A stretch of DNA of 64,000 bases from an uncultured Atopobiaceae bacterium (lineage in GTDB: Bacteria > Actinomycetota > Coriobacteriia > Coriobacteriales > Atopobiaceae): contig CANQNP010000002.1 in NCBI GenBank assembly GCA_947625235.1, positions 1 through 64,000 of the forward strand, given 5' to 3'. Under the pieces are notes generated by a model that saw only the letters and a program-made list of their open reading frames with translations, made no database searches and was not told the origin of the DNA. Shown one piece after another: positions 566-7,326 of the stretch. Each line of letters starts with the position of its first letter. Positions within the stretch are counted from its first letter, which is position 1. The translations under genes and the position numbers were made by a program.

Positions 566-2313
<1,748 letters not shown>

Positions 2314-2580
2314 AAAAGTTTGTGAAGGCCTTGGGCCTTCGAACGTGCAATGTGAGATGTTTGAAAGGAAAGTCCAGCCCCAGCCTTTAAGATTCGAGTT
2401 TCCTTGAATAAGGAATCGACATCAAACAAAGGCTTACATCCAACCGTGATGGTTGGCGAAGCATTCGCTGGTTTGCTGTCTTGGCTGCTCAATGCAGCCA
2501 CAGTATCCGGTTTTCAAGGTTCGCGGCGCCCCGTGCCCAAGCCCTTGGAGGCTTGTTCGCGTTTTTGGGCGCGGAGATCA
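2314..2580 (-). promoter_or_regulatory. rRNA operon leader
   Basis: This transcribed leader lies between the rRNA promoter and 16S. Positions 2457-2484 form the 5' arm of the 16S processing stem; the matching arm is in the 16S-23S spacer at 741-762. The element TTGAAAACCGGATACTG (minus strand, about 2517-2501) resembles the conserved leader/spacer boxes that in other Gram-positive rRNA operons belong to the antitermination and processing signals. That role is inference. No open reading frame here looks coding. Confidence 0.6.
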
Positions 2581-2609
2581 ACTATAGCGCCCTCTCTTCC
2601 CGGATGCAA
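2581..2609 (-). promoter_or_regulatory. rRNA operon promoter
   Basis: Reading the minus strand, a -35 TTGCAT (2609-2604), a 17-base spacer and a -10 TATAGT (2586-2581) match the housekeeping sigma consensus closely. The promoter sits about 270 bases upstream of 16S in a locally AT-richer stretch that includes an upstream run of A residues. It is the clearest consensus promoter in the window. The rest of the gap to the next gene, 2610-2707, shows nothing else I can name. Confidence 0.8.
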
Positions 2610-2707
2610 CACTTTTTTACCGGAAATTTGCATTCACGGCTTCTCCACAACCGTGGCACGCGCAGGCGCGGGAGCAATATAGCACGCCGGGCGGCGCGAT
2701 CAAGCGC

Positions 2708-4105
2708 TCAACGCGAAGTCGTCCTTTCCACCACATCTTCCGCGGCGTCGAGGAGCCGGTCGCGCTCCTGCTTGGTGGGCGCCTCGGCGAAGATGCGCAC
2801 GAGGGGCTCTGATTCCGAGGTGCGCACGAGGAACCAGGATTCGTCTTCGAAGTGCATCTCGAGGCCCATCGCGTGGCTCATGAGCGTGGGCGCCTTGCCG
2901 AGCACGGCGCCCGGGTTCACGCCGGGCAGGAGGTTCTTGAGCATGGCCTTCGTGGCCACGTCGACGGGCACGGCGCGAAGGCCGTAGGACGTCGTGCCGA
3001 GCGTGGCGTCGAGCTCGGCCACGAGCTCGGAGAGAGGGCGAGCCGCCTGGCACGTGAGCTCGAGCACGCAGAGCGCCACCACGAAGGCGTCGCGGCTCTC
3101 GCCGAAGGCGGGGACCGTGAGGCCACCGAGCACGTCCGTCGTGGAGAGCACGCCGCCCGTGTTCACCTCGTCGCGCGCCCACGCGCGCTCGTCGCCCACG
3201 CGCACGAGCTCGAGGCCGAGGCGCCTGGCCTGGCGCTCCACCACCACGCTCGCGGTCCTCGGCACCACCACGCGGCCGCTGAGACCGCGATCCTCCACGA
3301 GGTGCGCCATGGCGAGGGCGTGCACCTTCGGCGAGGGCACGAGCGAGCCGTGCTCGTCGATGACGGCGAGGCGGTTCGAGGGACCGTCGAAGACGAAGCC
3401 CATGTCCGCGCCGCCCACGCGCACGGCGCGCTCGCAATCGTCTGCCCACGGCTCGATGGCCGCGGGATGGAGGTCGCCGAAATCGTCCACGTTCGCCCCG
3501 TGGATCTCGCGCACGGCGAGCCCGAGGCCGGCGAAGTAGGCGCGCGCGATGCCACGCGCCGTGCCGTAGAGCGGGTCCACCACGATGGAGAGCGAGGGGG
3601 CCATCGATTGCCCGATCGTGAACGAGCTCCGAAGGTGCGTGAGGTAGGGGCCCGTGAGGTCCACGAGGTTGAAGTGGCCCCGCTTGGGCTCCACCTTCGC
3701 CGGGACCATGCGCTCCACGAGCGCGGCCTCCTCGGCGCCCATCGCGTGCCCGCGCGAATCGCGCACGCGAATGCCGAGGTAGTTTGAAGAGCGGTGGTCG
3801 GCTCCCACCATGAAGCCGCCCGCGGCGCCCGCGTCCTCGGCGAGGGCGAGGTTCAGCGCGGGCATGGGCGTGGGCGCCTCCGCGAGGTGCACCGAGAGGC
3901 CCTCGGAGCCGAGGAAGGAGGCCACCGCGCGCGCGATCTCCGCCGAGCCGGCGCGCGTGTCGAAGGCCACGTAGGCGCGGCTCCCGCGATCGTCGTGGGC
4001 CCAGATCTCCGCGCACGCCGACGCCACGCGCAGCGCCACCTCCTTCGCCTCCGCGAGGGAGCAGCGGGAATACCAACCGTCGTTCGTGAAGCGGATGTAG
4101 GCCAT
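2708..4105 (-). CDS. Phosphohexomutase-fold protein with degenerate catalytic motifs
   Basis: This 465-residue protein aligns along its length with the phosphoglucomutase/phosphomannomutase family, whose four domains normally interconvert hexose 1- and 6-phosphates. Family landmarks are recognisable: VAFDTRAGS near residue 47, the PTPMPALN segment, and a domain-4 phosphate loop RTSESEPLVRI near the C-terminus. The catalytic phosphoserine loop TASHNP is replaced by GADHRS, so the serine position is Asp. The metal loop DGDxDR is replaced by DGPSNR, and the sugar-specificity loop is also unlike active members. It is therefore probably not a normal mutase. It follows galU by 50 bases on the same strand, where an active glucose mutase would be expected. 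The ATG at 4105 was chosen because homology begins there; the ribosome binding site is weak. Confidence 0.75.
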   Translation of the reverse strand: MAYIRFTNDGWYSRCSLAEAKEVALRVASACAEIWAHDDRGSRAYVAFDTRAGSAEIARAVASFLGSEGLSVHLAEAPTPMPALNLALAEDAGAAGGFMVGADHRSSNYLGIRVRDSRGHAMGAEEAALVERMVPAKVEPKRGHFNLVDLTGPYLTHLRSSFTIGQSMAPSLSIVVDPLYGTARGIARAYFAGLGLAVREIHGANVDDFGDLHPAAIEPWADDCERAVRVGGADMGFVFDGPSNRLAVIDEHGSLVPSPKVHALAMAHLVEDRGLSGRVVVPRTASVVVERQARRLGLELVRVGDERAWARDEVNTGGVLSTTDVLGGLTVPAFGESRDAFVVALCVLELTCQAARPLSELVAELDATLGTTSYGLRAVPVDVATKAMLKNLLPGVNPGAVLGKAPTLMSHAMGLEMHFEDESWFLVRTSESEPLVRIFAEAPTKQERDRLLDAAEDVVERTTSR

Positions 4106-4155
4106 GGGCGGGTGGTCCTTCGGGTCGTTCTCGGCGGATCTCGGATGCGGCGGGG

Positions 4156-5043
4156 CTACGCGATGAGCGAGGCGTCGTCGCCGAGCTCCTCGAGGAAGGC
4201 GCCCTTCGCGGCCTCGCTCGCGAGCGCCATGCGCGCGTTCGCCGCGGCCCACGTGGCGGGCGTGCCCGTGTCGAGGCCGTCGCGGCCGTCGATGACGAGC
4301 GCGTACATCTCCTCTTCCTCGAGCAGGCGCACGAGGGCGTCCGTGAGCTGGATCTCGCCGCTCGCGCCTTCGCCTTGGTCCTCGAGGAGCTCCATCACGC
4401 GGGGAGAGAGCAGGTAGCGACCCACGATCGCGAGGTTCGTGGGCGCCTCCTCGGGAGATGGCTTCTCCACGAGGCCGGAGAGCTTGAGCACCGCGCCGGG
4501 CGCGTTCTCGTCATCGCCGGCCACGAGCTCGCCCGCGACGATGCCCCAGCGCCCGGTGGTCGAGGGGTCCACCGGCGCCACGGCGATCACGGACGCGCCG
4601 CCGTGCGCGGCCGAGACGGCCGCCATGGCGGGGTTCATGCCGTGCGCGGGGACCACGTAGTCGCCGAGGAGCACGAAGAACGGCTCGTCGCCCACCTCGC
4701 TCGCCGCCTGGAGCACGGCGTGGCCGAGCCCGAGCGGCTCGTCTTGGTAGACGAAGGCCACGGGAAGCGACCCCGCCTCCCCCACCTTCTCGGCGAGGGG
4801 CGCCTTACCATGCGCGCGGAGGAAGTCCTCAAGCGCCGGCGCCGGGGAGAAGTAGGCCTCGAGCATGGGCTTCTCGCGCGAGTTCACGATGATGGCCGCG
4901 TCCACACCCTCCACGTCGAGCGCCTCCTCCACCACGTGCTGGATCACCGGGGTGTCGAGGAGCGGAAGGAGCTCCTTCGGCACGCCTTTGGTGGCGGGGA
5001 GGAAGCGCGTGCCCAAGCCGGCGGCGGGGATGATGGCCTTCAT
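4156..5043 (-). CDS. galU: UTP-glucose-1-phosphate uridylyltransferase
   Basis: This 295-residue cytoplasmic nucleotidyltransferase makes UDP-glucose from UTP and glucose 1-phosphate for glycans and glycolipids. The N-terminal nucleotide-binding signature AAGLGTRFLPATKG with the following PKELLP is at residues 7-27. The QDEPLGLGHAVL segment and VLLGDYVV follow, as in GalU. Length matches the family. It starts 27 bases after a DtxR-type regulator and precedes the degenerate phosphohexomutase, so the three are probably co-transcribed from the murA side. The RBS is GAAAGGG before ATG 5043. Confidence 0.93.
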   Translation of the reverse strand: MKAIIPAAGLGTRFLPATKGVPKELLPLLDTPVIQHVVEEALDVEGVDAAIIVNSREKPMLEAYFSPAPALEDFLRAHGKAPLAEKVGEAGSLPVAFVYQDEPLGLGHAVLQAASEVGDEPFFVLLGDYVVPAHGMNPAMAAVSAAHGGASVIAVAPVDPSTTGRWGIVAGELVAGDDENAPGAVLKLSGLVEKPSPEEAPTNLAIVGRYLLSPRVMELLEDQGEGASGEIQLTDALVRLLEEEEMYALVIDGRDGLDTGTPATWAAANARMALASEAAKGAFLEELGDDASLIA

Positions 5044-5070
5044 GCGAAACCCTTTCTCGAATCTGCGCGG

Positions 5071-5535
5071 CTATTCGTGGAGGTGCGTGCCGTGCACGCT
5101 GCCCTCGGAAAACTCCTTCACCTGCATGCCCTGGCCCTCGAGGTAGAGGGTCCAGCGGCGCATCGTGTCCTCGGAGAGGGCGTGCTCCATGAGGCACGCC
5201 TCGGCGTCGGCGACCTTCGGCTCCACGCCGAGGTCCTCCTCGAGGAAGGTGCGCAGCATCCGATGGCACTTCCAGAGGAGCTCGGCGTAGGCGCGGCCCT
5301 CGTCCGTGAGCCCCACGCGGCCGTAGCGGTGCTGGACGACGTAGCCCTTGTCCTTCAGCGTGACGAGGGCCTTCGCGACGCTCGCCTTCGAGACGTCGAG
5401 GAGCTCCGCCACCGCCACCGAGCGCACGGCCTCGGCGCCGTCCTCGTCGAGCATGATGCGCCAGATGGCCTCGAGGTAGTCCTCGTTTGCCATCGTGAGG
5501 CTGTGGAGGTCGGCCACTTCGCTCGATGTCGCCAT
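5071..5535 (-). CDS. DtxR/MntR-family metal-dependent transcriptional regulator
   Basis: This 154-residue DNA-binding repressor belongs to the iron/manganese-sensing DtxR family. An N-terminal winged helix-turn-helix (about residues 15-75, with the recognition region LLDVSKASVAKALVTLKDKG) is followed by a dimerisation domain carrying the metal ligands. The family hallmark ExCxxEH appears as EACLMEHALSE near residues 112-122, with the upstream His ligand in KCHRMLRTFLEEDLG. There is no C-terminal SH3 domain, as in MntR-type short members. It lies 17 bases after murA and 27 before galU. The metal specificity cannot be assigned from sequence alone. RBS: GGGGGAAGCG before ATG. Confidence 0.88.
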   Translation of the reverse strand: MATSSEVADLHSLTMANEDYLEAIWRIMLDEDGAEAVRSVAVAELLDVSKASVAKALVTLKDKGYVVQHRYGRVGLTDEGRAYAELLWKCHRMLRTFLEEDLGVEPKVADAEACLMEHALSEDTMRRWTLYLEGQGMQVKEFSEGSVHGTHLHE

Positions 5536-5552
5536 CGCTTCCCCCTCGTGCC

Positions 5553-6812
5553 CTAGAGGTCCACGCGGCTCACCTCCGCGCCCAGGCCCTGGAGCTTGGG
5601 CACGAAGTCCTCGTAGCCGCGGTCGATGTGGTGGATGTCGCTCACGGTGGTGTAGCCGTCCGCGACGAGCCCGGCGAGCACGAGTGCCGCGCCGCCGCGC
5701 AGATCGGGCGCCGTCACCGGCGCGCCGGAGAGGCCGTCCACGCCGCGGACGATGGCGTGGTGGCCTTCGATGATGATGTCGGCGCCCATGCGCGAGAGCT
5801 CCGCCGCGAGCATGAAGCGGCTCTCGAAGATGTTCTCCGTGACGACGCAGCTGCCGCGGGCCACGGAGAGGAGCACCATCGTCTGGGCCTGCATGTCCGT
5901 CGGAAAGCCCGGGAAGGGCAGCGTCTGGATGTCGAGGGCGCGAAGCGGCCCCTCGCGGCTGATGGTGCAGGAGCGCTCGCCGCGCTCCACCTGCATGCCC
6001 ATTGATTCGTATTTGCGGAGGACGAGGCCGAGGTGCTCGGGGTCGAAGCCCGTGACCGTCACGGGGCCGCCCGTGAGTGCGCCCGCCGCGAGGAAGGTGC
6101 CCGCCTCGATGCGATCACCCACCACCTCGTGCTCCACCGGGTGCAGCGCCGAGACGCCTTTGACCTTGATGGTCGGGGTGCCGGCGCCCTCGATCTCGGC
6201 GCCCATCTCCGAGAGCATGGTCGCGAGATCGCAGATCTCCGGCTCGCGCGCGGCGTTTTCGATCGTCGTCTCGCCCTCGGCGAGCACCGAGGCCATGAGG
6301 AGGTTCTCCGTGGCGCCCACGCTCGCGAAGTCGAGCGGCACGAACGCGCCCGTGAGCTCGCCGTCCACCCTGGCCACGATGTCGCCGTGGTCCTGCGAGA
6401 ACGTGACTCCGAGCGCGGAGAGGCCGCGAAGGTGCATGTCGATCTTGCGCGCGCCGATGTTGCAGCCGCCCGGCATGGCCACGCGCGCCTTGCCGAAGCG
6501 CGCGATGAGGGGGCCGAGCACCGCGGTGGAGGCGCGCATCTGGGCCACGAGCTCGTAGGGGGTCACCCAGCTCTCCACGCCCGAGGTGTCGATCACGAGC
6601 GTGTGCTCGTCCTCCACCTCGATGGAGGCCCCGAGGCGCGTGAGCACCTTGCCCATCACGTGGACGTCGGAGATGTTCGGGACGTTCGTGAGGCGGGAGA
6701 CGCCCGGCGCCATCAAGGTGGCCGCCATGAGCTTCAGCGCTGAGTTCTTGGCGCCCTCGACGCGGACCGTGCCGCGCACGGGCGGGCCGCCAACGACTCG
6801 GATTGCCTCCAC
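5553..6812 (-). CDS. murA: UDP-N-acetylglucosamine 1-carboxyvinyltransferase
   Basis: This 419-residue enzyme catalyses the first committed step of peptidoglycan synthesis, transferring enolpyruvate from PEP to UDP-GlcNAc. The N-terminal GTVRVEGAKNSALKLMAA segment and the catalytic loop MPGGCNIGARKIDMHL (Cys at about residue 117) are intact. Because the loop residue is Cys rather than the Asp of mycobacteria, the enzyme is predicted to be a fosfomycin target. The start is GTG at 6812 after AAGGAGGGGGC. An 85-base gap separates it from atpC, so it may be read through from the ATP synthase operon or have its own promoter; no clear consensus is visible. Confidence 0.95.
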   Translation of the reverse strand: MEAIRVVGGPPVRGTVRVEGAKNSALKLMAATLMAPGVSRLTNVPNISDVHVMGKVLTRLGASIEVEDEHTLVIDTSGVESWVTPYELVAQMRASTAVLGPLIARFGKARVAMPGGCNIGARKIDMHLRGLSALGVTFSQDHGDIVARVDGELTGAFVPLDFASVGATENLLMASVLAEGETTIENAAREPEICDLATMLSEMGAEIEGAGTPTIKVKGVSALHPVEHEVVGDRIEAGTFLAAGALTGGPVTVTGFDPEHLGLVLRKYESMGMQVERGERSCTISREGPLRALDIQTLPFPGFPTDMQAQTMVLLSVARGSCVVTENIFESRFMLAAELSRMGADIIIEGHHAIVRGVDGLSGAPVTAPDLRGGAALVLAGLVADGYTTVSDIHHIDRGYEDFVPKLQGLGAEVSRVDL

Positions 6813-6897
6813 GCCCCCTCCTTGGTCTCGCGTGCCCCGCTTGCGGGCCCCATTCTAGTGGAGCGTATGTGAAGTCCGCGTGGTCGAGCCGCGCGCC

Positions 6898-7326
6898 CTA
6901 GCGGGCGTGGTACTTCTCGTCCACCTTCAAGAGGAGGTCGCACCAGCGGATCTTGCTCTCGAAGTACGAACGACCCGGGTCGTCGGCCGCAAGCTCCTCG
7001 AGCGCGTCCTCGGCATCGTCCTTCGTGTCCTCCACGACGTCGGGATCGATGTCGTCCACGTTGCGGGCGTGATCCGCGAGGACGATCACGCGCTCGTCGG
7101 AGATGCCGCAGTAGCCGCCGGAGATGACGATGTGGGTCGTGGTCTCGCCCGCCTCGTCCGGCACGTGGTTGATGCGCATGACGCCCTCGCCGAGCGCGCA
7201 GATCTCGGGCGCGTGGTGTGGGAGGATCCCGAGCTCGCCCGTGCGCGTGATCACCGTCACCGAGAGCGCGTCGCCCTCGCTGAGGAGCTTGTCCGGCCGG
7301 ACGATCTGGTACTTGAAGGTGTCCAA
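6898..7326 (-). CDS. atpC: F1Fo ATP synthase epsilon subunit
   Basis: This 142-residue epsilon subunit of the F1 stalk couples rotation to catalysis and can inhibit hydrolysis. The N-terminal beta-sandwich shows the typical GELGILPHHAPEI segment near residues 30-42 and VISGGYCGISDERVIVLADHA. The C-terminal part is an acidic helical region. It is the last gene of the ATP synthase operon, 29 bases after atpD. Confidence 0.95.
   Translation of the reverse strand: MDTFKYQIVRPDKLLSEGDALSVTVITRTGELGILPHHAPEICALGEGVMRINHVPDEAGETTTHIVISGGYCGISDERVIVLADHARNVDDIDPDVVEDTKDDAEDALEELAADDPGRSYFESKIRWCDLLLKVDEKYHAR

Follow-up and report, generated by a model that had tools for sequence, protein, structure and literature searches.

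The phosphohexomutase homologue encoded next to galU in an uncultured Atopobiaceae bacterium retains its fold and has lost most of its active site. The gene occupies positions 2708–4105 (minus strand) of the window – the whole 64,000-nucleotide stretch of DNA that we analysed, which is the first 64 kb of a contig from a 1.73 Mb draft genome (148 contigs, 91% complete). Named relatives of this genome are Atopobiaceae, four of five from 'Lapin' samples. The open reading frame begins with an ATG at 4105 and encodes 465 amino acids. On the strength of its sequence, we consider it very probable that the protein of the window and its closest relatives (the window clade, below) is not a mutase, and the window protein probably serves to bind sugar phosphates or to regulate, not to catalyse. 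It is about an even call whether the fuller explanation holds: that this is a pseudoenzyme derived from a vertically inherited phosphohexomutase, with a cleft that would still bind a phosphosugar and tune a partner in the GalU step.

The original prediction described a phosphohexomutase homologue with a preserved fold, and the Pfam domains, the AlphaFold model and the structure matches all agree. The protein scores above the cut-off for PGM_PMM_I, II and III (PF02878, 60.4 bits; PF02879, 45.9 bits; PF02880, 21.7 bits). Domain IV received no Pfam call, yet the model of the window protein aligns to 1tuo over residues 1–461 (Z 33.0, 417 residues aligned, rmsd 3.1). The AlphaFold model (six sequences) has a mean pLDDT of 78.4 and a pTM of 0.79, with the sugar-loop region mostly below 50 pLDDT. 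The best Foldseek and VIA-align matches are phosphohexomutases without exception, and the four-domain fold with its PGM_PMM domains places the protein in the alpha-D-phosphohexomutase superfamily, taken as a fold family. No NCBIfam equivalog exceeded its cut-off for the window protein; the best match was TIGR03990 (171 bits against 439). Nor is the protein GlmM (TIGR01455, 108.4 bits against an equivalog cut-off of 447.55).

The catalytic loops are a different matter. Consistent with the predicted replacements of TASHNP by GADHRS and of DGDxDR by DGPSNR, alignment with canonical rows revealed a phosphoserine loop that reads GADHRS (residues 101–106; 3788–3805, minus strand), with Asp103 at the position of the catalytic serine, and a metal loop that reads DGPSNR in place of DGDADR (residues 240–245; 3371–3388, minus strand), with two of three metal aspartates lost. 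The losses extend beyond those originally described, to Arg12, Lys113, Lys308 and the sugar-binding loop, where STTDVLGG (residues 321–328; 3122–3145, minus strand) replaces (I)GGEESGG by alignment, in a region of low model confidence. The domain-4 phosphate-binding loop RTSESEPLVR (residues 428–437; 2795–2824, minus strand) had been called retained. This stands for Arg428, Ser430 and Arg437 and fails for Gly431 and Thr432, which are changed (RTSESEP against canonical R-x-S-G-T-E-P). Taken as a group of enzymes, the superfamily is marked by a phosphorylatable serine followed by histidine, a three-aspartate metal loop and an EESG sugar loop; the window protein has none of these, and among the ten rows of its clade not one has serine or threonine at the first site or all three aspartates at the second.

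By alignment, the first substitutions are Arg12 to Tyr, Thr101 to Gly, Ser103 to Asp, Asn105 to Arg, Pro106 to Ser and Lys113 to Arg. Asp242 to Pro, Asp244 to Asn and Lys308 to Ala follow in the metal loop and beyond, and Glu324 to Asp, Glu325 to Val, Ser326 to Leu, Gly431 to Glu and Thr432 to Ser in the sugar and phosphate loops. The window protein keeps the canonical residue at 5 of 17 listed positions (His104, Asp240, Arg245, Arg428 and Ser430); canonical rows keep 16–17, and Atopobiaceae rows 4–12 (median 9). The working parts of phosphohexomutases are the serine, the following histidine, a domain-I arginine, three aspartates, and the glutamate and serine of the sugar loop (PMC6443537, PMC7761743). 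In a BLAST comparison of 20,000 similar sequences, the latter source reports arginine for that histidine only in two fish PGM5 proteins, and invariably threonine or serine two residues ahead of the serine. Lys389 of human PGM1 is the general base proposed there (PMC7761743), and we dropped Lys308 as a candidate for this role. Judging from its position behind the sugar loop, Lys389 may in our own reading correspond to window Arg338, a position that is arginine or lysine in all 87 full-length Atopobiaceae rows.

Two trivial explanations were set aside. An alignment artefact is countered by the unchanged Arg51, Arg245, Gly327 and Arg437 that anchor the loops, and by close relatives that share them. 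A pseudogene or sequencing error is countered by the rows of the same genus, which have an identical metal loop in five of six cases and Asp-His-Arg in six of six.

Of 101 genomes in the family, 91 carry an ortholog (best match E <= 1e-47), a count that takes in the window genome. The alignment comprises 90 rows – the window protein and 89 of the 90 other orthologs – and the ortholog from G066, handled in a separate check, is non-canonical too. Eighty-seven of the 90 rows are full length, two of the other three being cut by contig ends; counts over 87 rows drop these fragmentary or broken rows (L124, L125 and L126). The canonical comparison set has 45 rows drawn from elsewhere in the class and phylum, including 15 that lie beyond the class; L156 (family f3), whose site is degenerate, was left out of it. 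Ser-His-Asn is present in 45/45 canonical rows, all of which also have the three metal aspartates, Glu324, Ser326 and Gly431, and in 0/90 Atopobiaceae rows. At the serine site the 90 rows carry S (59), D (11), G (9), T (5), A (2), L (2), C (1) and R (1); the histidine site is His in 12 and the asparagine site is Asn in none. Among the 87 rows, serine and histidine never occur together, Lys308 is retained in none, Lys113 and Gly431 in one each, and Ser326 in two. Serine or threonine with all three metal aspartates occurs in 52/87, and with Arg12 as well in 20/87.

Other residues are maintained. The anion pocket retains Arg51 and Arg245 in 87/87 rows and Arg428, Ser430 and Arg437 together in 79/87. 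Nine residues are unchanged throughout (Trp11, Arg51, Asp177, Gly181, Arg245, Gly370, Gly395, His411 and Trp424). Across the family, conservation at the catalytic columns of the phosphoserine loop is no longer exceptional: columns 103, 104 and 105 stand at the 53rd, 28th and 32nd conservation percentiles.

The picture differs within the window clade, a tree group starred at 99 whose ten rows come from the window genus and three other genera. Columns 103, 104, 105, 240, 242, 244 and 245 are all invariant there, four of them with a non-canonical residue; 119 of 465 columns are invariant overall, which gives 7/7 a chance of 6e-5 if columns are independent – an assumption that does not quite hold. 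A fragment from another genus (L124) also carries Asp-His-Arg, together with DGPANR. The proposed check, whether the altered loops are conserved among relatives, gives a positive answer in the window clade, in all seven columns, and not family-wide, where the phosphoserine-loop positions vary. Random loop variation between close relatives, named beforehand as a sign of decay, is absent from the clade.

In a quick LG+G4 gene tree of 142 rows, 86 of the 87 Atopobiaceae rows form one starred group nested among the canonical rows of the class; the orthologs of family f10, which we take to be Coriobacteriaceae (as we take f2 to be Eggerthellaceae), likewise nest within the class. The remaining row, L112, is placed outside this group, next to L156 and on a long branch; the program flagged their joining as doubtful. 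This nesting suggests that a resident gene was inherited vertically and altered in place, rather than imported. Nei-Gojobori dN/dS medians are 0.33 for the window genus and 0.04–0.22 for five other Atopobiaceae sets – well below 1 in every set, and thus the mutase homologue is under purifying selection. In five of six sets the ratio exceeds that of galU (for the window genus, 0.33 versus 0.16), and in g23/g21/g3 the two are level (0.145 and 0.143). We read these patterns as ordinary catalysis lost near the base of the family, followed by diverging fates: a newly fixed site in the window clade, serine-plus-metal remnants in other lineages and loss in a few. Relaxed constraint forms part of this picture across the whole family.

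Genes on the minus strand run from what are presumably ATP synthase genes (named from their translations) through murA (5553–6812; TIGR01072, 541 bits), an MntR/DtxR-type metalloregulator (5071–5535; PF02742 and PF01325), galU (4156–5043; TIGR01099 as best match) and the mutase homologue to 16S (799–2312; RF00177, 1552.8 bits) and 23S rRNA; murA and the regulator are neighbours in relatives as well. A gap of 50 bp separates the mutase homologue from galU, which encodes UDP-glucose pyrophosphorylase. The interval 2300–6900 yielded no terminator-like site, and we infer that the two genes are co-transcribed. The sole sigma-70-like promoter match in that interval lies just past the end of the mutase homologue (2676–2703, minus strand; 9/12 matches, mean 0.2 in shuffles) and faces the rRNA operon.

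Conservation of the gene and of its place beside galU, both claimed originally, are upheld: of the 89 relatives retrieved, 87 have galU immediately upstream and on the same strand, 9–174 bp away except in the split-gene L126 (714 bp). It lies elsewhere in L057 and L072. A 16S rRNA gene follows in 37/89; in many of the rest, the sequence runs on for no more than a few hundred bases. Ten genomes of the family lack an ortholog match. Four of these keep galU without the mutase (G010, G040, G058 and G033), three end just past galU (G032, G100 and G063), two have no galU match (G064 and G038), and G056 has a frame-broken mutase remnant after galU. This remnant (L219) and the split copy in G011 (L126) are the frame-broken mutase homologues that we observed behind galU. 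The galU link is thus close, not obligate.

The window GalU scores below the TIGR01099 equivalog cut-off (233.4 bits against 326.8), its motifs nonetheless intact. Nucleotide-binding motifs and the motifs whose residues we take to be catalytic are kept in the 90 GalU rows compared, including those of L156 and L168. Together with the four genomes that have galU alone, this suggests that GalU carries out its own chemistry without requiring the pseudo-mutase, and it can persist alone. As for adjacency to galU as a cause of the loop loss, a single origin in Atopobiaceae offers no independent contrast. We also considered a fusion with an NTP-transferase (G217 and G218) and rejected it, as the long frames are in-frame upstream readings that look non-coding by eye. 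A partner surface of newly conserved residues was rejected as well: Glu313, Gly395, Asn397 and His411 are already present in f10, and the Glu313 and His411 positions have the same residue in some canonical rows too. Comparison of Atopobiaceae with f10 and canonical rows yielded no residue that would mark a new partner.

Orthologs in f10 have Ser-His in eight of nine rows and lie upstream of 16S rRNA as in the window, with a homocysteine S-methyltransferase, not galU, between regulator and mutase. In two of these nine rows (L152 and L155), which are not beside galU, the sugar and phosphate loops are clearly altered – possibly a parallel change outside Atopobiaceae. A degenerate mutase homologue is also encoded in G110 (L156, family f3), downstream of a galU split in two frames.

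A second, canonical mutase was to be looked for in the window genome, and we identified two: GlmM (513 bits against a cut-off of 447.55) and a 539-amino-acid protein with TASHNP, DPDADR, EES and RPSGTEP loops. The latter falls below every NCBIfam cut-off, yet matches solved mutases, and it could be a source of glucose-1-phosphate for GalU.

How might such a protein work? The window protein has lost the phosphoryl-carrying serine, the asparagine two residues on, two of three metal aspartates, Gly-Gly-Glu-Glu-Ser of the sugar loop and the proposed acid, an arginine; a new set, Asp-His-Arg and Asp-x-Pro-x-Asn-Arg, is fixed in its clade. Since neither a phosphorylatable residue nor a metal site is left, cycling of a phosphoryl group would be impossible. 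The retained Arg51, Arg245, Arg428, Ser430 and Arg437 suggest that anionic ligands could still be bound in the cleft, a phosphosugar being the probable one, as in the inactive PGM5. More tentatively, ligand-dependent closure of domain 4 might tune a partner in the conversion of glucose-1-phosphate to UDP-glucose, the most likely candidate being GalU, encoded by the adjoining gene. A role as a sensor or GalU regulator is possible, though we would sooner doubt it than assume it. A wider version, in which the whole family, by vertical descent and in place, turned a housekeeping mutase into a non-catalytic phosphosugar sensor that belongs to the galU operon and modulates UDP-glucose synthesis, while its lineages try out different dead sites, strikes us as unlikely.

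Other readings fit parts of the evidence. That the protein is still an enzyme, catalysing a different reaction – with Asp103 or some other residue of the cleft as nucleophile, or with sugar phosphates being hydrolysed or isomerised free of phosphoserine – would accord with loops that are fixed rather than random in the window clade, with an aspartate at the nucleophile's place and the retention of Asp240, and with the 52/87 relatives that keep serine or threonine and the metal aspartates; outside the window clade, indeed, some phosphoryl chemistry may persist. Yet the window protein lacks two metal aspartates, both conserved lysines, Glu-Glu-Ser of the sugar loop and Arg12, and we rate this reading as rather unlikely. 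Such a residue set is not known to us from any working phosphohexomutase. A normal mutase whose phosphoryl group and metal are carried by alternative residues could draw on the complete fold and on His104 in the clade; the absence of serine, threonine and an intact metal triad from all ten clade rows, and the two canonical mutases that remain in the genome, make it highly improbable.

It is likewise unlikely that the gene is simply under relaxed selection and heading for loss, kept by chance between galU and the rRNA operon. The low conservation percentiles of the loop columns, dN/dS ratios above those of galU in most sets, and the missing or damaged genes (lost in four genomes, frame-broken beside galU in one, split in another) all point that way, but the reading frame is full length in 87/90 rows, dN/dS stays well below 1 throughout, nine residues never vary and the new loops are fixed in the window clade.

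Atopobiaceae emerge as a family of gut bacteria in which a mutase homologue has kept its place by galU, and where a 'phosphomannomutase' annotation is no guide to mutase activity. Dozens of genomes allow one ortholog to be traced from an intact enzyme to a dead active site, among them relatives that keep the serine and metal site and have lost the histidine, asparagine and lysine; both the sequence of losses and the function that was kept can thus be tested. Our literature searches for inactive bacterial phosphohexomutases returned none; the published inactive one that they found is vertebrate PGM5.

Among known systems, PGM5 (aciculin) is the closest in kind: it has the same fold and altered active-site loops, and is retained as a non-catalytic protein. 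We know of no relation between PGM5 and GalU. Mutase activity is absent from PGM5 and substrate binding intact, herring PGM5 binding glucose 1-phosphate (PMC7761743); inactivity of the window protein is predicted from its sequence. PGM5, a vertebrate paralog of PGM1, keeps the catalytic serine and the metal loop and shows a few loop changes, whereas the bacterial window protein is an ortholog that was altered in place and has lost the serine, two metal aspartates and the sugar loop. Its retained anion-binding arginines and serine are suggestive of a PGM5-like way of working, not of membership. As a precedent, an S108D mutant of PMM/PGM was, per its entry title, solved with glucose 1,6-bisphosphate (PDB 2fkm). 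The canonical orthologs of the class (PMM/PGM-like; best NCBIfam match TIGR03990, below cut-off) share domain order and gene tree with the window protein; unlike it, they have intact catalytic loops in 45/45 rows, and only L168 has galU nearby, in the opposite direction. Action on another enzyme by direct binding is known from GlmM, which inhibits CdaA (PMC8573169), although GlmM is an active mutase and its partner a cyclase. GalF, encoded beside GalU in enterobacteria and named 'GalU regulator GalF' in NCBIfam, has likewise been put forward as a second protein acting on GalU, but it is a GalU paralog rather than a mutase, and its role has been termed contradictory (PMC4643126).
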